Shown here: positions 2,513 through 48,941 of the stretch, piece by piece
Layout of the letters: each line of letters opens with the position of its first letter
How positions within the stretch are numbered: the stretch's first letter is position 1
Origin: Methylobacter tundripaludum SV96
GTDB taxonomy: Bacteria; Pseudomonadota; Gammaproteobacteria; Methylococcales; Methylomonadaceae
Reading direction: 5' to 3'
Assembly (NCBI RefSeq): GCF_000190755.2
Contig: NZ_JH109152.1
Coordinates: 1,054,001 to 1,118,000, forward strand
Length of the DNA: 64,000 nucleotides
Notes under the pieces: generated by a model
Told to the model about the DNA's origin: nothing
Seen by the model: the letters and a program-made list of their open reading frames with translations, nothing else
The model's database searches: none
Translations under genes and position numbers: made by a program

Positions 2513-3964
2513 ATGAAGCCGATTTTTTACCGTCCTGCCCAGCTGCGTGGCTTGGCCTTTCTAGGTTTGTTGTTGTCCGCTCTCGCCATACTCGGCGGCA
2601 TGATCTGGCGAAATGTGCATCACTTTGAAACGGTTTTTTCTTATGTGAATTATTCGCATCGAATCCAGAATGTATCGGTGGGCTTACAGCAATCGCTGAT
2701 TGAATATCTGACCGAAACGGTATCGGGTTCGCGTCCCGAGGCGCTGACCAAAACGCTGGGTGAGATGGATGCGTTAATGATGGATAACCGCTATTTGTCA
2801 GCAGCGACCCGAACAAGCCTGGAAACGGTCAAAAGCATGCTGATTGATTTGCCCTTGTTGAAAAAAGAAGAAAAGTACAATCGTCTGTTAACGGCGCTTA
2901 AATTAATGAGCGAAACGCTGGATAACGAGGCGCTGCAACGAGAGGAATTGCTTGAGGACATTAGTCGGGATACCCAAACCGAATTGTATATGGCCTTGGC
3001 AATATTCACGGCGATATTGGTTGTGGCGGTATTATTTTTACGCCTCAGAATCCTGCACCCGCTTAATGATTTGAGGGAACTGTTACAGCGCTTGACCGAA
3101 GAAAACTTCACTCCGATCACCACGGATCATCTTGATCCGCTGCTGTTGCCGGTGTTTAACAGTTACAACGAGATGGTTAAGCACCTGGCGGAACTGGAAG
3201 ATGCCAATCGTTTACACGCCCAATCATTGCAGCATGAAGTCAGGTTAGCCACGCAAGCCTTACTGGAGCAGCAATACAGCCTGGCTAGAGCCGACCGGTT
3301 GGCGGCAATCGGCGAAGTGGCAGCGGAATTAGCGCATGAGATACGTAATCCATTGGCCGGAATCCAAATGGCATTTAATAATTTACGTCGCGAAATTGAT
3401 GATATAGACCAGCTGGAGCGACTGGATTTGATTAATGCCGAACTGAAACGGATGGCGAGATTGCTTAACGATATGCTCGATCAAAGCCGTCATTCGCCGG
3501 AAGTGGCTACGGCTTTTGATGTGCGGACGTTAATTCGGGACTTGGTGGCGTTAACACGCTACCAGATTGCCGAATCGATACATCTGGAAATAGAAGCTCC
3601 CTGTGCGTTGCCGGTGCATCTGCCTGAAAGCGGGGTACGGCAAGCTTTGTTGAACCTGATACTGAATGCGGCCGATGCGCTTGAAGGCAATCCCGGAACT
3701 ATCCGTATCAGGGCTCGAACTGACAAACAGGGGTTGCGCATCGACGTGCAGGATGACGGTATCGGATTTTCCCAGGATATGCTGGAGCATGGTATCCGCC
3801 CATTTCGCACCAGCCGTCAACGCGGCACCGGCTTGGGATTGGCTATGGTGCAACGCTTTGTAAAAGACGTCGGTGGTACAATCAGCCTCACCAATCAACC
3901 GACTCATGGCGCATGCGTGTCCATACTGCTGCCCTATGACTGCATTGTTAGAGATAAATTATGA
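2513..3964 (+). CDS. Membrane sensor histidine kinase
   Basis: A 483-residue sensor kinase. Visible architecture: transmembrane helix 1 (about residues 12-32), a helical periplasmic sensor region of about 120 residues, helix 2 (about 158-177), a HAMP-like linker, a coiled coil, and the HisKA dimerisation helix with the phospho-acceptor His275 in AELAHEIRNP. The C-terminal HATPase domain has an N-box (NLILNAADALEGN) and G-boxes (DDGIGF, GTGLGLAMV). It partners the response regulator that starts in an ATGA overlap with its stop codon, so the pair is surely co-translated. The kinase resembles those that feed NtrC-type activators. The signal is unknown. Confidence 0.93.
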   Translation: MKPIFYRPAQLRGLAFLGLLLSALAILGGMIWRNVHHFETVFSYVNYSHRIQNVSVGLQQSLIEYLTETVSGSRPEALTKTLGEMDALMMDNRYLSAATRTSLETVKSMLIDLPLLKKEEKYNRLLTALKLMSETLDNEALQREELLEDISRDTQTELYMALAIFTAILVVAVLFLRLRILHPLNDLRELLQRLTEENFTPITTDHLDPLLLPVFNSYNEMVKHLAELEDANRLHAQSLQHEVRLATQALLEQQYSLARADRLAAIGEVAAELAHEIRNPLAGIQMAFNNLRREIDDIDQLERLDLINAELKRMARLLNDMLDQSRHSPEVATAFDVRTLIRDLVALTRYQIAESIHLEIEAPCALPVHLPESGVRQALLNLILNAADALEGNPGTIRIRARTDKQGLRIDVQDDGIGFSQDMLEHGIRPFRTSRQRGTGLGLAMVQRFVKDVGGTISLTNQPTHGACVSILLPYDCIVRDKL

Positions 3965-40529: not shown

Positions 40530-40812
40530 TGCTGATCGACGCAATTTCTTCCATCCGCCGTTACAATTTGGCATTGGCTGACACATTCTGAGCCATTTGC
40601 TGACGGTCGCGACTGACTGCTTTATGGCGATGAATATGGCGGAATGAAGTTCGGCAATACGCCAAGACCGGACTGACATGATTTTATTTGAATATCCGCT
40701 GTCGCCCCCGGCCTCACAAAATTTATAAATACCGCCATGAATAAAGATCATTTAACAGCCTTGACTCGACGGAGTAATGTTTTCAATGAATCTTTTTCCA
40801 ATGGAGCTATTT

Positions 40813-41907
40813 ATGAATACCCTCGTTAAAGTCACCGCCCTTTTATTGATGTTCGCATTTGAAGCGGCGGCACAACCCGATTCAAAATTCGACGTCATCG
40901 CCAATCTCGATACCGGTCCGGGCAATGTTACCGTTACCGATAATGGCCGCATCATCATGAGCATGCATCAGTTTTATCAGCCTAAATACACGGTGGTTGA
41001 ATATAAAAATAATGCGCTGCTGCCGTTTCCCAACAAAGAACTGGCGGATTCCGATTCAATATCGAATCTGAAGCTGGATTCCGTGCTGGGCATCCGAGCG
41101 GATGCCTACGGCATCGTGTGGATGCTGGATAACGGCATGCGCAGCAGCGTCACGCCTAAGCTGGTGGGATGGGACACTCGCAGCAATAAACTGCATCAGG
41201 TTATCCATTTACCGACACCGGTAGCGCCCAAGGATGCTTTTGTTAACGATTTCGCGGTCGATATTCGGCACAATCATATTTTTATCAGCGATCCGGCCGG
41301 TGGCGCAAATGCGGCGCTGATTGTCGTCAACCTAGGCACAGGAACGGCAAGACGCGTACTGGAAGGTCATCACAGCGTTATTCCCGAAGAGGTCGATTTG
41401 ATTATTGATAATGTACCGGTTCAAGTTAAAGATAAAGCCGGAAAATGGGTTAGGCCTCATATCGGAGTCAACCCGATCACCGAAGACCTGAGCAACGAAT
41501 GGGTTTATTTTGGCCCGATGCATGGATTCAGCCTTTATCGGATAAAGGCGGACGATCTGGTCGATGAAAGCCTGGATGCCGGGATGTTGGCAAATCGCGT
41601 TCAACGCTACAGCGATAAGCCGATTTCAGACGGCATCACAATCGACAAGGATAACAACATCTATCTGGGCGAGTTGGCGGCCAATGCGATCGGCGTTATT
41701 TCGGCCGATAAAAAGTATCAACGACTGGCTCAGTGCCCGCGCCTTTCGTGGGTGGATTCGTTCAGCTTTGGGCCAAATGGGCAACTGCTTGCGGTAGTCA
41801 ATCGACTGCATCAGTCAAGTACGCTTAATGGCGGCGTAGCGGCATCAAAACCGCCGTATTACCTGTTACAGATAAAAGCCCTGGCTGCCGGATTGCCCGG
41901 ACGGTAA
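40813..41907 (+). CDS. Secreted Yellow/major-royal-jelly-like protein
   Basis: A 364-residue exported protein of the MRJP/Yellow family, a six-bladed propeller found in insects and some bacteria (annotated as L-dopachrome tautomerase-related). Signal peptide about residues 1-20 (ending FEAAA). Conserved parts: LDSVLGIRADAYGIVWMLDNG (split: LGIRADAYGIVWMLD), AFVNDFAVDIRHN, IFISDPA, PHIGVNPITEDLSNEWVYFGP and KPISDGITIDKDNNIYLGE. Start taken at 40813, which has a GGAG ribosome binding site; an upstream in-frame ATG at 40777 has none. The substrate is unknown. It ends next to the LysR gene that regulates in the other direction, close to the pxm operon. Confidence 0.82.
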   Translation: MNTLVKVTALLLMFAFEAAAQPDSKFDVIANLDTGPGNVTVTDNGRIIMSMHQFYQPKYTVVEYKNNALLPFPNKELADSDSISNLKLDSVLGIRADAYGIVWMLDNGMRSSVTPKLVGWDTRSNKLHQVIHLPTPVAPKDAFVNDFAVDIRHNHIFISDPAGGANAALIVVNLGTGTARRVLEGHHSVIPEEVDLIIDNVPVQVKDKAGKWVRPHIGVNPITEDLSNEWVYFGPMHGFSLYRIKADDLVDESLDAGMLANRVQRYSDKPISDGITIDKDNNIYLGELAANAIGVISADKKYQRLAQCPRLSWVDSFSFGPNGQLLAVVNRLHQSSTLNGGVAASKPPYYLLQIKALAAGLPGR

Positions 41908-42021: not shown

Positions 42022-42945
42022 TCATGAACCAGTAATGTTCCGGCCTATCGCTATTATTTTGTCCCGCAGCCAAAGATGGGCCGGATCTTTGTCATGTAAC
42101 GGATGCCAAATCATGACTAACTGGTAAGAAGGAAGCTCGATAGGCACGGGAAATATTTCCAGCGGCGCAAATTTTTTAAACTGCTCGGCAATTCGATAAG
42201 GTAGCGACAATATCATATCGGTTTCGGCAACGATCAGCGGTGCGGAAAGAAAGTGAGGGACGATCAGCTTGATGCGCCGCTCCAATCCCCGTTCAGCCAG
42301 TTTTTGATCGATTAAGCCGACGTTGCTGCCTGTTCGGGAAATCAACATATGGGGAACTGCCAAATACTCTTCCAACGAAGGCGGTTTTGTTATCAGCGGA
42401 TGATCCTGCCTGACCACGCAGGCCATCTGGTCGCTAAATAAATGTTCGCAGTGTAAATGTGGAGGTGGATTGAGTACCGATTCGAAACCGAGCACGACAT
42501 CAAGACTGCCGTTTTCCAATTGTGCGGCCGGGAATGACGATTCGGTGCGTTTAAGGTGGATATCAATACCGGGGGCGATTTGGCCGATCAATCCCAACAG
42601 CTCGGGTATTAACAGCAATTCCATATAATCCGTGGCAGCAAGTACAAAGCGCCGCTGACTCGTTCCGGCTTCAAATTCCAACGGCGGCTGAATCAGTTGC
42701 TCCATCTCATTCAGTAAGCTCCTGATCGGCTCAATCAAGGTCAGCGCTCTTTCAGTGGGTTTCATTCCGGACGGCGTTTTAACCAGCAGAGGATCATCCA
42801 GCTGTTGCCGTAGTCTCTGCAAAATATGGCTCATCGCCGATTGCGTGATAAACATCTGTTCCGCAGCACGGGTAACGTTCAACTCTCGCATCAGTACATC
42901 GAAGGCCACCAATAAGTTCAAGTCAAAGGTTCTTAAATTAGACAT
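42022..42945 (-). CDS. LysR family transcriptional regulator divergent from pxmABC
   Basis: A 307-residue regulator. N-terminal winged helix-turn-helix (NLLVAFDVLMRELNVTRAAE, then QSAMSHILQRLRQQL, about residues 8-50) and a LysR substrate-binding domain (about 90-300) of the NodD/NahR-like group (FVLAATDYMELLLIPELL). Start chosen at the ATG 42945; an upstream TTG at 42960 is possible. Its 5' end faces pxmA across about 260 bases, the classic LysR divergent arrangement, so it is the prime candidate for control of the monooxygenase operon. The inducer is unknown. Confidence 0.9.
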   Translation of the reverse strand: MSNLRTFDLNLLVAFDVLMRELNVTRAAEQMFITQSAMSHILQRLRQQLDDPLLVKTPSGMKPTERALTLIEPIRSLLNEMEQLIQPPLEFEAGTSQRRFVLAATDYMELLLIPELLGLIGQIAPGIDIHLKRTESSFPAAQLENGSLDVVLGFESVLNPPPHLHCEHLFSDQMACVVRQDHPLITKPPSLEEYLAVPHMLISRTGSNVGLIDQKLAERGLERRIKLIVPHFLSAPLIVAETDMILSLPYRIAEQFKKFAPLEIFPVPIELPSYQLVMIWHPLHDKDPAHLWLRDKIIAIGRNITGS

Positions 42946-43073
42946 AGGAGTACTTTTCAATGTTGGTTCGGGTCAGGATAACAAAAACACAGCATGCCTC
43001 GACCATGAATTGTGTCAATGACGGGATGAAATATAAACATTTAACAAAGCCGTTCTTTCAACCTACTGTATCA

Positions 43074-43131
43074 CTCAAGCGTGTTGTTTAGCTTGAGTCG
43101 GCTCAGTTCCCCCTCAATGAGCTGCCGATAA
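43074..43131. promoter_or_regulatory. Inverted repeats upstream of pxmA
   Basis: A perfect dyad CTCAAGC-10 nt-GCTTGAG (43074-43097), followed at once by a second imperfect dyad (CGGCTCA ... TGAGCTGCCG, about 43100-43131). They lie between the LysR gene and pxmA. They may be operators for the regulator or hairpins in the pxm leader. No -35/-10 pair stood out. Confidence 0.4.
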
Positions 43132-43204: not shown

Positions 43205-43957
43205 ATGTCAGTAAATATTTCAAACCGGTCATTTCGACCTTACACAGGAGAAAAAGCGCGGATTACCCGCGCTTACGATTACCTGATCCTGGTATTGGCT
43301 CTTTTTCTGTTTATCGGTTCTTTCCATCTTCATTTTGCGCTGACTGTCGGCGACTGGGATTTCTGGGTGGACTGGAAAGACAGACAATGGTGGCCGCTGG
43401 TGACGCCGCTGATGGGCATTACTTTCCCGGCGGCGGTGCAGTCGGTCATGTGGACGAAGTTTCGCCTGCCGATGGGCGCTACCTTGTGCGTGGCTGCGTT
43501 ATTGATAGGTACCTGGATCACCCGCATATTCGCCTATCATTATTGGAATTATTTCCCCATTAACATGGTCTTGCCCGCCACCATGTTGCCCGGTGCGCTG
43601 GTGCTGGACGCGATCCTGATGTTGAGCAACAGCCTGACCGTCACTGCGGTTTTAGGGGGCGCGTCTTTTGCGTTGCTGTTCTACCCCAGCAACTGGCCCC
43701 TGTTCGGCATGTTTCATGTGCCTGTCGAGTACGGCAACGGCCAATTGACGGTCGCCGATTTGTTCGGCTTCGAATACATACGCACCGGCATGCCGGAATA
43801 TTTACGCATCATCGAGCGGGGTACCTTACGCACTTACGGCCAATACGCAGCGCCGTTAGCGGCATTTTGTTCGGCGCTGTTATGCATCCTGATGTACACC
43901 TTATGGTGGTTTATCGGGAAGTGGTTCGCAACCGTTCGTTACCTTAATAAAATCTGA
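43205..43957 (+). CDS. pxmA: Copper membrane monooxygenase subunit A, PxmA type
   Basis: A 250-residue polytopic membrane protein homologous to PmoA/AmoA. Family stretches seen: LTVGDWDFWVDWKDRQWWP (near residues 42-60), TFPAAVQSVMW, YFPINMVLPATMLPGALVLD (split in the family as FPINxVxPAxxxPGA), and VPVEYGNGQLTVADL. Compared with PmoA several positions differ (for example WKDRQWWPLVTPLMG), as in the pXMO group. Start set at 43205, with AGGAG 13 bases before it; an upstream in-frame start (43154) lacks one. Because A is the first gene, followed by B and C, this is the pxm order. Its substrate (methane, another alkane or ammonia) is not settled. Confidence 0.95.
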   Translation: MSVNISNRSFRPYTGEKARITRAYDYLILVLALFLFIGSFHLHFALTVGDWDFWVDWKDRQWWPLVTPLMGITFPAAVQSVMWTKFRLPMGATLCVAALLIGTWITRIFAYHYWNYFPINMVLPATMLPGALVLDAILMLSNSLTVTAVLGGASFALLFYPSNWPLFGMFHVPVEYGNGQLTVADLFGFEYIRTGMPEYLRIIERGTLRTYGQYAAPLAAFCSALLCILMYTLWWFIGKWFATVRYLNKI

Positions 43958-43971
43958 GGGGAGGGCAATTT

Positions 43972-45213
43972 ATGAAACAGCTATTAATCAAGTGCATGGC
44001 ATCTCTCGGGTTTATCCTTTCGCTGTACACGCTGAATATCGCAACTGTGATGGCGCATGGGGAAAAGGCTTTAGAGCCGTTTATCAGAATGCGCACGATA
44101 CAGTGGTACGACGTGCAATGGGACAAACAAAAATTTAATGTTAATGAGGAAGTCAGCGTTAGCGGCAAATTCCATGTCGCCGAGGATTGGCCGGTCAGCG
44201 TGCCCAAACCTGAAGCGGCGTTTTTGAATATATCGACGCCCGGCCCGGTGCTGATCAGGACCGAACGCTATCTGAACGGTAAACCGTTCATGAATTCGGT
44301 GGCCTTGCAGCCCGGAGGCGATTACAACTTCAAGATTGTGCTCAAAGGGCGATTGCCGGGCCGTTACCACATCCATCCGTTCTTTAACCTGAAAGATGCC
44401 GGACAGGTGATGGGGCCGGGCGTATGGCTGGAAATTACCGGCAGTCCGTCGGATTTTTCCAATAAGGTCAAAACCATCAACGGCGAGGTAATCGATATGG
44501 AAACCTATGGCCTGGGCAACGGTATATTCTGGCATCTGTTCTGGGGCTTATTGGCAACGGCCTGGCTGCTTTGGTGGCTGCGGCGGCCGTTGTTTATTCC
44601 ACGCTACAGAATGCTGCAAGCCGGTGGTTTGGAAGATGAACTGGTCACGCCGAACGACCGTTTAATTGCAAAAGCGATGCTGGTCGGCGTGCCCTTGTTG
44701 GTGTTGGCCGTCAATGCAATGACGATAAGCGAATATCCAAATGCCATACCGTTGCAGGCTTCGCTGGACCAGATTTTGCCGCTATCCGCCCAGGTCAATG
44801 CCGGCGTGGTCGATGTCGAGACTTTGAAAGCCGAATACCGGATACCGGAACGTTCAATGGAGTTCACTGTAAAGGTCAATAATCGCAGCGAAAATCCTGT
44901 TCAAATAGGCGAGTTTTCTACCGCTAATGTGCATTTTTTGAACAAGGATCTGCAAGCGGCGTATCAAGGCGATTCAACAAGCATGACAGCGTTTGAAGGC
45001 TTGAGCCTGGAGAATCCTGCACCGATACAACCCGGCGAACAGCGCACGATGACGATAACCGCGAGGGATGGGTTTTGGGAATCCGAAAAACTGAACGGGC
45101 TGATTCGGGATGCCGACAGCCGGATCGGCGGCCTGCTGTTTTTGTACGATTCGGTAACAGCCGCGCGTTATATCTCCAGCATAACCGCCGCAGTGATTCC
45201 GAAATTCAATTAA
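43972..45213 (+). CDS. pxmB: Copper membrane monooxygenase subunit B, PxmB type
   Basis: A 413-residue subunit with a signal peptide ending at about residue 28 (ATVMA). The mature N-terminus begins HGE, so His29 becomes the N-terminal histidine, and GRYHIHPFF gives His133 and His135: together these are the three ligands of the Cu-B site of particulate methane monooxygenase. Two cupredoxin-like domains flank two membrane helices (about residues 180-200 and 225-250). The gene starts 14 bases after pxmA with a GGAGGG ribosome binding site. Confidence 0.95.
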   Translation: MKQLLIKCMASLGFILSLYTLNIATVMAHGEKALEPFIRMRTIQWYDVQWDKQKFNVNEEVSVSGKFHVAEDWPVSVPKPEAAFLNISTPGPVLIRTERYLNGKPFMNSVALQPGGDYNFKIVLKGRLPGRYHIHPFFNLKDAGQVMGPGVWLEITGSPSDFSNKVKTINGEVIDMETYGLGNGIFWHLFWGLLATAWLLWWLRRPLFIPRYRMLQAGGLEDELVTPNDRLIAKAMLVGVPLLVLAVNAMTISEYPNAIPLQASLDQILPLSAQVNAGVVDVETLKAEYRIPERSMEFTVKVNNRSENPVQIGEFSTANVHFLNKDLQAAYQGDSTSMTAFEGLSLENPAPIQPGEQRTMTITARDGFWESEKLNGLIRDADSRIGGLLFLYDSVTAARYISSITAAVIPKFN

Positions 45214-45233
45214 ACCGTTAAGAGGCTTACATC

Positions 45234-46007
45234 ATGGCTACAACATCCGAACAATTACCTTTAGTGGTAGAAAATAAAAACGCAGAACCCTGGTATATCA
45301 AGGATTTACCGATGTACCTGAAAGGCTTTGCCATGCTGACGGTTATCTATATCGGGCTACGCTTATATCAAGGCGCTTTTGCCGTTGCGTCGGGATTGGA
45401 CTCGTCCGAACCGGCGTTTGAACAGTACTGGATGCAGCTGTTTTACGTTGAATTAGGCATTCTTGCTGTATTCGTGACCGGTGTATGGGGCTATTTATGG
45501 CTTTCGCGTGATCGTAACCTGGACAAGCTGGAACCGAAGGAGGAAATCAGCCGCTATTTCACCCTGACCATGTGGATCAGTATTTACACCTTTGCGGTGT
45601 ATTGGGCCGGTAGCTATTTTGCCGAACAGGATAATTCCTGGCATCAGGTCGCAATCCGCGACACGCCTTTTACGGCCAATCATATTATCGAGTTTTATTT
45701 TAATTTTCCGCTGTATGTGATTTTAGGCGGTTGCGCCTGGCTATACGCCAGAACCCGGTTGCCGCTCTATGCCAAGGGCATTTCGCTGCCGTTGACGTTG
45801 GCCGTATTCGGGCCGTTTATGATATTGGTTAGCGTTGGCTTTAATGAGTGGGGACATACCTTTTGGTTCAGGGAGGAATTTTTCGCCGCGCCTATTCATT
45901 GGGGCTTTGTGATCGGCGTCTGGTTTGCGTTGGGCGTAGGCGGCATATTGCTTCAGGGCGTAACCCGTTTGATTGAATTGCTTGATGAGTTGGAAGACGC
46001 GCCATGA
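45234..46007 (+). CDS. pxmC: Copper membrane monooxygenase subunit C, PxmC type
   Basis: A 257-residue membrane protein homologous to PmoC/AmoC with about six helices. Ligands of the Cu-C site are kept: Asp133, His137 and His150 in DNSWHQVAIRDTPFTANH (spacing D-x3-H-x12-H). Those of the proposed Cu-D site are also kept: Asn204, His208 and His222 in NEWGH and APIHWGF (spacing N-x3-H-x13-H). This argues for a functional enzyme. It is the last gene of pxmABC, 20 bases after pxmB, and no extra pmoD-like gene follows. Confidence 0.95.
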   Translation: MATTSEQLPLVVENKNAEPWYIKDLPMYLKGFAMLTVIYIGLRLYQGAFAVASGLDSSEPAFEQYWMQLFYVELGILAVFVTGVWGYLWLSRDRNLDKLEPKEEISRYFTLTMWISIYTFAVYWAGSYFAEQDNSWHQVAIRDTPFTANHIIEFYFNFPLYVILGGCAWLYARTRLPLYAKGISLPLTLAVFGPFMILVSVGFNEWGHTFWFREEFFAAPIHWGFVIGVWFALGVGGILLQGVTRLIELLDELEDAP

Positions 46008-46306: not shown

Positions 46307-47524
46307 ATGACAACCATTAAACGCACCGGCATTCATTATGCATGGATCGTACTCGCTGTTACCTTTATCTGTTTGTTTGTTGCATCAACGCTTCGGTCCG
46401 TTCCGGGCATCATTATGCTGTCGCTGGAGCATGAATTTAATTGGAGTAGAGAAACAATAAGTGGCGCCGTTTCGGTCAATCTGCTTTTATTTGGGCTGGC
46501 CGGTCCTTTTTTAGGCAGATTGATGGATTTATACGGAACTAAAGCCATCACCGTGATCATGCTTACCCTGGTCACTTTAGGGGCGGGCGGCAGCATCTTC
46601 ATGCAGGAGCCCTGGCAACTGTATTTGTTTTGGGGCGTGATCATCGGCGCAGGTTCGGGAGGCACCTCAATAGTGATGGGATCGACCGTTGTCAATCGCT
46701 GGTTTCGGCAACGGCGCGGTCTGGCTTTGGGGATTTTGGGCGCCGCCTTTTCATCGGGCCAGTTAATTTTTACGCCTATTATAATGAACCTGAACATGCA
46801 GTTCGGCTGGCGGGCGGTAACGCTGTTTATAGCGTTGATGCTGGGCTTGGTCGTATTACCACTGGTTATGATGTTTATGACTAATAATCCCGGCATAAAG
46901 GGATTGCAGCCTTATGGCGACAATGGGGACGCTGCACCTGAAGTTCGTCCTGACCCGAACCCGATGCGTTCGGCAATGGCCAATCCTCAGTTCTGGTTGC
47001 TGGCTTTCAGCTTCGGTATCTGCGGTTTTACCACCTCAGGCCTGTTTCAGACGCACTTGATTAGTCACGGCATCGAACACGGTTTTCCGGAAATGACGAT
47101 GGCCGTGTCATTAGGCGTAATGGGCGCGACCGATATTGCAGGTACCGTTTTCTCCGGCTGGTTATGCGATCGTTTTGGTAAGTGCTGGCCGCTGGCGATT
47201 TATTACGCGCTGCGGGGCGTTTCATTATTGTTGCTGCCTTATGTCGAATCGACCGGGCAACTGATGGCCTTTTCCGTTGTCTATGGGCTGAATTGGTTGT
47301 CGACGGTTCCGGCAACCTCAGCACTCACAGCGGATCTGTTCGGCAAACAAAATGTCGGAGTCGTTTTTGGCTGGATCTGTTTTGCCCATCAGGTCGGCGC
47401 AGCGTTAGCCAGTTACGGGGCAGGCTATTTACATGGCTTGTTCGGGAATTACACCTTGGCCTTTATGACCTCCGGTCTTTTTGCCTTAGCGGCTACCGGG
47501 CTGGTCATGAATATACGGGAATGA
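46307..47524 (+). CDS. MFS transporter
   Basis: A 405-residue permease of the major facilitator superfamily with 12 helices. Visible: the A-type motif between helices 2 and 3 (GRLMDLYGTKAI), NRWFRQRRGLALGILGAAF before helix 5 as in monocarboxylate/oxalate-formate antiporter-like members, and DIAGTVFSGWLCDRFGKCW between helices 8 and 9. The substrate cannot be told; family members carry small organic acids. It lies 300 bases behind pxmC, with repeats between, so it may or may not be part of the operon. Confidence 0.85.
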   Translation: MTTIKRTGIHYAWIVLAVTFICLFVASTLRSVPGIIMLSLEHEFNWSRETISGAVSVNLLLFGLAGPFLGRLMDLYGTKAITVIMLTLVTLGAGGSIFMQEPWQLYLFWGVIIGAGSGGTSIVMGSTVVNRWFRQRRGLALGILGAAFSSGQLIFTPIIMNLNMQFGWRAVTLFIALMLGLVVLPLVMMFMTNNPGIKGLQPYGDNGDAAPEVRPDPNPMRSAMANPQFWLLAFSFGICGFTTSGLFQTHLISHGIEHGFPEMTMAVSLGVMGATDIAGTVFSGWLCDRFGKCWPLAIYYALRGVSLLLLPYVESTGQLMAFSVVYGLNWLSTVPATSALTADLFGKQNVGVVFGWICFAHQVGAALASYGAGYLHGLFGNYTLAFMTSGLFALAATGLVMNIRE

Positions 47525-47662: not shown

Positions 47663-48169
47663 ATGTCATTGACTATGTACCAAGCATCCATCCCCGTTTT
47701 TGTGCGTATGTTGGATAATTTATCCGGGATACTCGACAAAGCTGCCGCCCATGCCGAAGCAAAGAAAATCGATCCAGCCATTTTTGTAAACGCGCGTCTG
47801 GCACCCGATATGTTTCCGCTGAGCCGCCAAGTACAAATTGCGACTGATATGGTCAAAGGTTGCGCCGCTCGACTGGCTGGCATTGAAGTGCCCAGTTATG
47901 AAGATAATGAAAGCACTTTTTCCGAGTTGCAAGCGCGTATCGCCAAGACCAAGGCGTTTATAGAAAGCGTCAGCGCGTCGCAAGTTGACGGCAGTGAAGA
48001 GCGCAAAATCACGCTGAAATTTGGCAGCAAAGAGCTCAGTTTTTTGGGACAAGCTTACTTGCTTGATTTTGTGTTGCCCAATTTCCATTTCCACCTCACC
48101 ACCACTTACGCCATACTGCGGCATAATGGCGTGGCAATTGGAAAAAAGGATTACACCGGCGATTATTAA
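47663..48169 (+). CDS. DUF1993 family protein
   Basis: A 168-residue cytosolic protein of the DUF1993 family (DinB-like four-helix bundle). Seen: MSLTMYQASIPVFVRMLDNLSGIL, then ARLAPDMFPLSRQVQIATDMVKG and, at the end, FVLPNFHFHLTTTYAILRHNGV, which are family signatures (each only part of the longer conserved blocks). Conserved histidines suggest metal binding. The function is unknown. It has a GGAGAAA ribosome binding site and its own promoter, no operon partner. Confidence 0.88.
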   Translation: MSLTMYQASIPVFVRMLDNLSGILDKAAAHAEAKKIDPAIFVNARLAPDMFPLSRQVQIATDMVKGCAARLAGIEVPSYEDNESTFSELQARIAKTKAFIESVSASQVDGSEERKITLKFGSKELSFLGQAYLLDFVLPNFHFHLTTTYAILRHNGVAIGKKDYTGDY

Positions 48170-48356
48170 TCTGCGTGGGTTAATCGCCTTCGGCCAAAAG
48201 CTGCCTTTGGCGATTTCCCCCAAAGCTAACACTTGGAATTGCCATCAGAAGCCTCTTGTAAGATACTCACAAACGGCGGGCAATTCCCTTTTTCATTTAT
48301 TTCCCTGAAATAGAGCAGCCCCTTTTTTTCCTTATATGCATGAGGAGATCGAAATC

Positions 48357-48941
48357 ATGAACACACGTGCGAACTTCAAGTCCTTACAGGAGGGCACCAA
48401 GGAAGATTGGCAACTGATTTTTAGCGAATTCAGTCGATTTGCCAAAGGGCTTCCTGACCGGGTGATGGCCCACCTTAAACTTCTGGAGGGTGACTTTGGC
48501 GGTTTTCCGGTAGACCGTTACATCCACTCACTGCAAACAGCCACCCGCGCGCTGCGTGATGGCCGGGATGATGAATATGTTGTCTGCGCTCTGCTGCACG
48601 ATATTGGCGATACGCTGGGAACGTACAATCATCCCGACATCGCGGCTGCCATTCTCAAGCCCTTTGTCAGTGAAGCCAATCTTTGGATGATCCAACACCA
48701 TAACATTTTCCAGGGCTACTATTTCTTCCACCATATCGGCATGGATCGCAACATGCGTGAGCAATTCCGCGACCATGTTCACTTTGAGCGCACAGCCGAG
48801 TTTTGTGAGTTGTACGATAGCCCGGCCTTTGACGCTCATGCCGAAACCTTACCCATCAGCGAATTCGAATCCATGCTGAGGCGAGTTTTTACCAAACCGG
48901 TCAATTCACTCTATAAAGCTGCGCTGGAAGCGGCCAATTGA
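48357..48941 (+). CDS. HD-domain protein
   Basis: A 194-residue protein of the HD superfamily. Metal ligands visible: His in RYIHSLQTATRALRDG (about residue 52), the HD pair in CALLHDIGD (about 79-80), and further His in QHHNIFQGYYFFHHIG (about 111-123). The set resembles a group of single-domain HD proteins close to the di-iron HD oxygenases (PhnZ, inositol oxygenase), but it could equally be a phosphohydrolase. Start set at 48357, where AGGAG stands 9 bases ahead; an upstream ATG at 48336 would overlap that site. Confidence 0.82.
   Translation: MNTRANFKSLQEGTKEDWQLIFSEFSRFAKGLPDRVMAHLKLLEGDFGGFPVDRYIHSLQTATRALRDGRDDEYVVCALLHDIGDTLGTYNHPDIAAAILKPFVSEANLWMIQHHNIFQGYYFFHHIGMDRNMREQFRDHVHFERTAEFCELYDSPAFDAHAETLPISEFESMLRRVFTKPVNSLYKAALEAAN

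Follow-up and report, generated by a model that had tools for sequence, protein, structure and literature searches.

A conserved gene cassette surrounds the pxmABC copper monooxygenase operon of Methylobacter tundripaludum SV96

The copper membrane monooxygenase (CuMMO) pXMO of methanotrophs, encoded by pxmABC, was reportedly described by Tavormina et al. in 2011, a work known here through the papers that cite it. Its substrate is described as unknown in the available text of PMC4594100, PMC12662621 and PMC8630023, and pxmABC tends to be counted as a methane monooxygenase in models and surveys. The systems with which it is compared are the canonical particulate methane monooxygenase (pMMO; pmoCAB), bacterial ammonia monooxygenase (AMO), and verrucomicrobial PMO3 (pmoCAB3), whose genes sit in a C3-compound cluster and whose oxidation of acetone has been demonstrated (PMC8630023, sections available). 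The present analysis concerns pxmABC in a 64,000-nucleotide window of contig NZ_JH109152.1 from M. tundripaludum SV96, whose genome comprises 4,848,329 bases in 3 contigs. The operon in SV96 is already known, the strain being listed with both pmoCAB and pxmABC in the available part of PMC12662621. The conserved neighbours of the operon are the more informative part of the locus and were overlooked by an earlier note on the window. The reading favoured here, at about even odds (a probability of roughly 0.5), is that pxmABC encodes a working accessory copper monooxygenase that is controlled by a LysR-type regulator, forms the core of a conserved cassette, and acts on an organic substrate rather than on bulk methane.

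The enzyme itself shows no difference from described pXMO. As the earlier note had claimed, its genes lie in A-B-C order with tight spacing: three intact open reading frames (ORFs), free of internal stops, follow one another on the forward strand with gaps of 14 bp (pxmA/pxmB) and 20 bp (pxmB/pxmC). They are not chance ORFs, because each product matches a subunit of a solved pMMO or AMO structure almost end to end (best matches: PxmA, 6cxh_B, 7.5e-91; PxmB, 3rgb_A, 1.6e-109; PxmC, 7ev9_C, 9.1e-76). The A-B-C order, a clade apart from those of pMMO and AMO, the CuB, CuC and CuD copper ligands, and a canonical pmoCAB in the same genome (locus L113; its PmoA is 53% identical to PxmA) are all features of pXMO. 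Canonical pMMO shares the subunit folds by homology and the same three sets of ligands, but has C-A-B order and forms its own clade. Bacterial AMO (PDB 9leg) has Gln at the CuA position, as here, and falls in the same wider group of the tree. The likeness to PMO3, taken from its published description, is that of a divergent CuMMO found alongside pMMO with gene neighbours pointing to an organic substrate; unlike pXMO, PMO3 has C-A-B order and C3-pathway neighbours, whereas the neighbours of pXMO belong to other families.

These neighbours were surveyed at 51 related loci with a PxmA at least 76% identical, counting a match anywhere in the locus. The LysR-type regulator was present at 45 of the 46 loci whose upstream sequence reaches 1.3 kb or more, and a protein of the MRJP family at 40 of the 41 with at least 2.7 kb upstream. 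A transporter of the major facilitator superfamily (MFS) was found at 34 of the 44 that extend 3.4 kb or more downstream; its nearest NCBIfam models are of monocarboxylate type (SfMCT L-lactate, 149.6 bits, and oxalate/formate, 104.5 bits, both under cut-off). The strict order of MRJP (forward), LysR (reverse) and pxmA (forward) was kept in 31/41 loci, and nine others were rearranged, MRJP and LysR both remaining inside 8 kb. Optional neighbours comprise a tautomerase (13/51 loci), a mandelate-racemase/muconate-lactonizing-type (MR/MLE) enzyme (6/51, these being the six alphaproteobacterial loci) and a CMD-like protein (4/51; Pfam score 19.7, under the cut-off of 23), and the Methylocystis-type loci carry tautomerase and MR/MLE genes in addition to the cassette. 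As controls, three window genes flanking the cassette were found at 0/51 related loci and, in a further difference from canonical pMMO, the cassette neighbours occurred at 0/3 of the pmoCAB loci checked. In mirror-tree comparisons with PxmA, the Spearman coefficients, which do not account for the species tree, were 0.92 for PxmB, 0.91 for MRJP and 0.78 for LysR.

Co-occurrence was assessed across 231 genomes that belong to the family, taken from a larger group, and 52 of them contained PxmA (at least 77% identity); neither these counts nor the Spearman values take kinship into account. MRJP was detected in 57 genomes, two matches of 30-31% identity having been set aside: 49/52 pxm-positive versus 8/179 pxm-negative genomes. 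The three pxm-positive genomes lacking MRJP are cut by contig boundaries: the sequence stops at LysR or shortly past it in G005 and G202, and starts 330 bases before pxmA in G036. Six of the eight MRJP genes in pxm-negative genomes are truncated or frame-broken (G022, G028, G039, G070, G146 and G154). Breakage was counted by truncation or frame change and not by stops, because some reported stops near MRJP matches are no breaks; that in G146 precedes the start codon, and several pxm-positive genomes also show one. The decay extends to the rest of the cassette. Genome G028 has lost pxmA and kept LysR, MFS, pxmC and a shortened pxmB, and in G026 MRJP, MFS and a shortened LysR remain, pxmABC being replaced by a 4.8-kb block. 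Outside the family, MRJP was matched at 1e-40 in 2/298 other Pseudomonadota genomes, with 38% and 35% identity. Selection acts on these genes as a set, which makes a functional enzyme very likely; the statement of the earlier note that it is functional stands to that extent, by conservation only. Two loci of the survey merit separate mention. A block at L126:2307-6878, occupying the place expected for pxmABC between a shortened LysR and an intact MFS gene, encodes a D12-class adenine methyltransferase and a leucine-rich-repeat protein, among other genes. In G036 (L121), a 97%-complete metagenome-assembled genome (MAG), the query matched pxmA and nothing else at 1e-20; pmoCAB may just be absent from the bin.

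Neighbours can also be kept by synteny, or inherited jointly as a mobile block, and would then be uninformative on substrate. Such an explanation gains from the fact that most loci come from one family and that the mirror-tree distances ignore the species tree; transfer of a block to alphaproteobacteria would, in addition, bring passengers along. The alphaproteobacterial rows do group in the LysR tree (five rows, support 0.64; 0.98 together with L032 and L036). Joint transfer of MRJP to alphaproteobacteria is unsupported, because the common ancestor of the alphaproteobacterial rows in the midpoint-rooted MRJP tree spans all 41 rows. Other observations speak against passengers: genes just outside the cassette are shared by none of the related loci, the cassette stays together within 8 kb where it is rearranged, and its genes decay together. 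MRJP is moreover found beside xmoABC in a second ABC clade (PxmA 57-60% identical), in which TetR stands in place of LysR; in an ABC clade with 71% identity, no MRJP match was found within the fetched loci. Passenger status for the neighbours is therefore considered unlikely.

The earlier note had also claimed that all copper ligands are kept. The nine ligands of CuB, CuC and CuD are present at the positions claimed in PxmB and PxmC (Table 1), and an alignment searched for their loss revealed none, all nine being invariant across 46/46 aligned core Pxm rows. The claim was slightly too strong with respect to CuA, where a bis-His histidine of M. capsulatus pMMO, which we take to be His48, aligns with Gln44 of PxmB. 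Gln occupies this position in 51/51 ABC-order rows, and likewise in AMO (structure 9leg). Gln44 is no argument against function, because the residue varies among pMMOs themselves (18 rows: nine His, five Asn, two Gly, one Gln and one gap).

Clade-specific residues were found beside these ligands when the 51 ABC rows were compared with 30 other rows. In PxmC they are Asn134 (51/51; others Gly 20, Ala 10), Ala148 (49/51; others Pro 30/30), Asn149, which adjoins His150 (51/51; others Ser 27, Thr 2, Trp 1), Val199 (49/51; others Pro 30/30) and Arg213 (50/51 with one gap, or 50/50 readable rows; others Met 28, Ala 2). PxmA contributes Ala110 (51/51; others Asn 20, Gly 10), Tyr111 (51/51; others Phe 29, Trp 1) and Tyr211 (51/51; others Phe 30). 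Residues 134, 149 and 199-213 of PxmC adjoin ligands in the sequence, proximity here meaning sequence and not spatial distance. Where Pxm has Ala, Asn, Val and Arg, canonical pMMO has Pro148, Ser149, Pro199 and Met213 (PxmC numbering), and the AMO structure 9leg likewise has Pro, Ser, Pro and Met. Neither this PxmC signature nor the LysR/MRJP/MFS cassette was found in the literature searched, subscription papers including Tavormina 2011 and Kits 2015b being outside its scope; searches linking pxm to royal jelly or tautomerase gave nothing related, judged by title.

The phylogeny was based on 81 rows, obtained from 143 PxmA-type rows by removing 63 (short re-fetched loci, rows missing a full-length A, B or C, and identical rows) and adding one AMO row taken from printed alignments of 9leg, a class-wide search of 274 genomes having yielded no row identifiable as a nitrifier. 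The set contains 51 ABC-order rows, 29 CAB-order rows and the AMO row, with no EmoA row. In the tree of A, B and C together, 51/51 ABC-order rows form one clade outside pMMO (ultrafast bootstrap (UFBoot) 99; support 0.93 for the ABC clade in a PxmA-only tree), and the 18 pMMO rows form a separate clade (UFBoot 100). The 46 core Pxm rows alone are supported at 59, and the core plus the 71% clade at 100. Gene order and phylogeny thus bear out the assignment to pXMO made in the earlier note, and PxmA does not cluster with canonical PmoA, in a tree where AMO is a single row and EmoA is unplaced. The C-A-B order and PmoA-clade membership of canonical pMMO are both lacking, as is the CuA histidine, itself found in only 9/18 pMMO rows. 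The description of pXMO as gammaproteobacterial proved too narrow: pxm also occurs at alphaproteobacterial loci (Methylocystis, and one labelled Methylocapsa), as already published.

The same tree bears on the possibility that pXMO is mainly an ammonia monooxygenase, feeding hydroxylamine/NO chemistry in the methanotroph. AMO and unassigned CuMMOs join Pxm in a 61-row group (UFBoot 100) that excludes pMMO, and PxmB and AMO have Gln44 in common. PxmA, PxmB and PxmC also exceed the NCBIfam cut-offs for AmoABC. The canonical PmoABC of the same genome pass those cut-offs too, so the models do not discriminate, and the AmoABC naming was rejected as evidence. No exclusive clustering of Pxm with AMO was seen, Pxm being its own clade and AMO a single row that sits with unassigned CuMMOs rather than inside Pxm (support 70 for the sister group containing AMO). 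At positions 148, 149, 199 and 213, Pxm differs from AMO as much as from pMMO. A primary role in ammonia oxidation seems quite improbable.

The chief rival to an organic substrate is that pXMO is an alternative methane monooxygenase for low oxygen, or for use with nitrate or nitrite as electron acceptor, with neighbours in regulatory or accessory roles. Transcription is on its side. In the available text of PMC4594100, nitrite plus hypoxia raises pxmA transcripts in M. album BG8, and for M. denitrificans FJG1 an approximately 10-fold rise of pxm is cited when conditions are denitrifying; the same text places the BG8 pxmA transcript three orders of magnitude below pmoA throughout. In one lake MAG, pxmABC is reportedly the sole pMMO-type enzyme (PMC11218250, in the part available), and the nine ligands are the same as in pMMO. 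Gene content gives a different picture. Across the 231 genomes, narG was found in 9/52 pxm-positive versus 63/179 pxm-negative genomes and nirK in 7/52 versus 67/179, both lower with pxm, where 20/74 nirK genomes scored below the model cut-off and norB and kinship are left out of the comparison. The cytochrome d1 family occurred in 38/52 versus 110/179 genomes and either nir type in 39/52 versus 130/179, counts in which PF02239 at 1e-40 also takes NirF-like proteins. Within the genus of the window, narG is present in 5/5 pxm-positive genomes, and in SV96 itself narG and cytochrome d1 were matched, while nirK gave no match at 1e-40. A denitrification link as a gene-content rule is unsupported, narG and nirK not being enriched with pxm. 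The link to denitrification mentioned in the earlier note is thus not supported by gene content, and the published transcriptional link in two strains is not contradicted. The clade-specific residues adjoining copper ligands, and neighbours that are neither C1 nor respiratory genes, also speak against a methane enzyme for low oxygen, which we regard as possible but doubtful.

An organic substrate is favoured because of the kinds of neighbours, the residues that differ from both pMMO and AMO, and the precedent of PMO3. LysR regulators, tautomerases, MR/MLE enzymes and carboxylate-type MFS transporters are typical of organic-compound pathways. We infer LysR control of pxmABC, enzyme activity, and a substrate that is organic and not chiefly methane. 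In the mechanism envisaged, LysR would sense a small organic effector, either substrate or product, and switch on pxmABC. The trimeric pXMO, whose catalytic copper would, like that of pMMO, be a membrane site close to the periplasmic side, would hydroxylate a small organic or co-substrate molecule. The MRJP propeller and the transporter would then deal with the product, joined in some hosts by the tautomerase or MR/MLE-type enzyme. Several observations weigh against this proposal. LysR regulators serve non-catabolic genes too, and nitrite with hypoxia, which raises pxmA transcripts in BG8, is not an organic-substrate signal. One locus (L007) has 8 kb of upstream sequence yet neither LysR nor MRJP, and genome G003 has an intact MRJP alone, without pxmA. 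The MRJP subfamily is not confined to pxm loci, because the uncharacterized structure 2qe8 matches at 1.3e-111. The transporter is absent at 10/44 loci, including all six alphaproteobacterial ones, and co-varies weakly with PxmA (Spearman 0.36).

A bolder version of the proposal, advanced only tentatively, takes pXMO out of the methane monooxygenases altogether. It would instead be the oxygenase of a periplasm-facing catabolic or signalling pathway for a small organic molecule that is sensed by LysR and processed by MRJP, and Arg213, Asn149 and Asn134 would build a more polar catalytic pocket for a functionalized substrate. The A-B-C enzymes would then be an ancient non-methane branch of CuMMOs, divided into at least three sub-lineages: core Pxm and the clades at 71% and 57-60%. 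If the substrate is not methane, environmental pxmA reads should not count as methane oxidation. The conserved LysR provides a testable handle, since its effector should point to the substrate of pXMO, and the genomes with decayed cassettes, together with residues 134, 148, 149, 199 and 213, mark out particular comparisons and mutants.

Table 1. Features of the pxmABC locus, in window coordinates
Feature	Position	Strand	Remarks
MRJP-family protein (PF03022)	40777..41907	+	376 aa; hydrophobic N-terminus resembling a signal peptide (by eye)
LysR-type regulator (PF00126 + PF03466)	42022..42945	-	307 aa; divergent from pxmABC
Palindrome ACTCAAGC-N10-GCTTGAGT	43073..43098	.	candidate LysR site; perfect only here and in close relatives
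pxmA	43205..43957	+	250 aa; membrane subunit, PmoA/AmoA family
pxmB	43972..45213	+	413 aa; signal sequence, then His29; CuB ligands His29, His133, His135; CuA position is Gln44
pxmC	45234..46007	+	257 aa; CuC ligands Asp133, His137, His150; CuD ligands Asn204, His208, His222
MFS transporter	46307..47524	+	405 aa; kept at 34/44 loci
DUF1993 protein (PF09351)	47663..48169	+	optional neighbour; also near 3/51 related loci

The interval between LysR and pxmA spans 263 bases and contains a perfect palindrome. Arms of at least 8 bases arose in 8/300 single-base shuffles of the region holding it. Among 55 intergenic regions, which include several window copies, it recurs besides those copies only at L003 and L010, both with arms of 8 bases, and at L008, with arms of 7, with the half site partly retained at other loci. 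As a conserved LysR box the palindrome is weak, given its recurrence in shuffles and retention in few close relatives; it is a lead and not a finding. No paper joining pxmABC with LysR emerged from the searches made, and among the papers listed for pxm with LysR, the LysR text available from PMC3404531 concerns CbbR. In strain 21/22, PxmABC transcripts are lower without tundrenone (PMC6977074, available part), where PxmABC is assigned to a run of four genes, 3483-3486.

Further A-B-C operons were encountered. Four xmoABC loci with PxmA 71% identical (L114, L115:3439-6246, L116 and L117, in G111, G213, G117 and G221) provide a third CuMMO beside pmoA and pxmA in 3/4 genomes; TetR-type genes precede them, and a truncated copy of xmoC lies close by. 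Clusters of MRJP, xmoABC and a CMD-like gene, with PxmA just 57-60% identical, occur at L052/L118 and L119; that at L052 shares its contig with a LysR-pxmA locus (87% across the part that is there), placing two ABC-type cassettes in tandem. L074 and L075 carry xmoCAB in two MAG records titled Klebsiella pneumoniae, an organism label that looks wrong. Within the window, an HD-domain protein at 48336-48941 bears a weak likeness to phosphonate HD-domain oxygenases (29 bits; cut-off 214.6) and is found at 0/51 related pxm loci. Between pxmC and MFS, the segment 46076-46270 contains a 38-base inverted repeat, 92% complementary, with 119 bases between its arms. This element, which resembles a miniature inverted-repeat transposable element, has 93 partial or full matches in its own genome, the best other copy being 93% identical over 192 bases.

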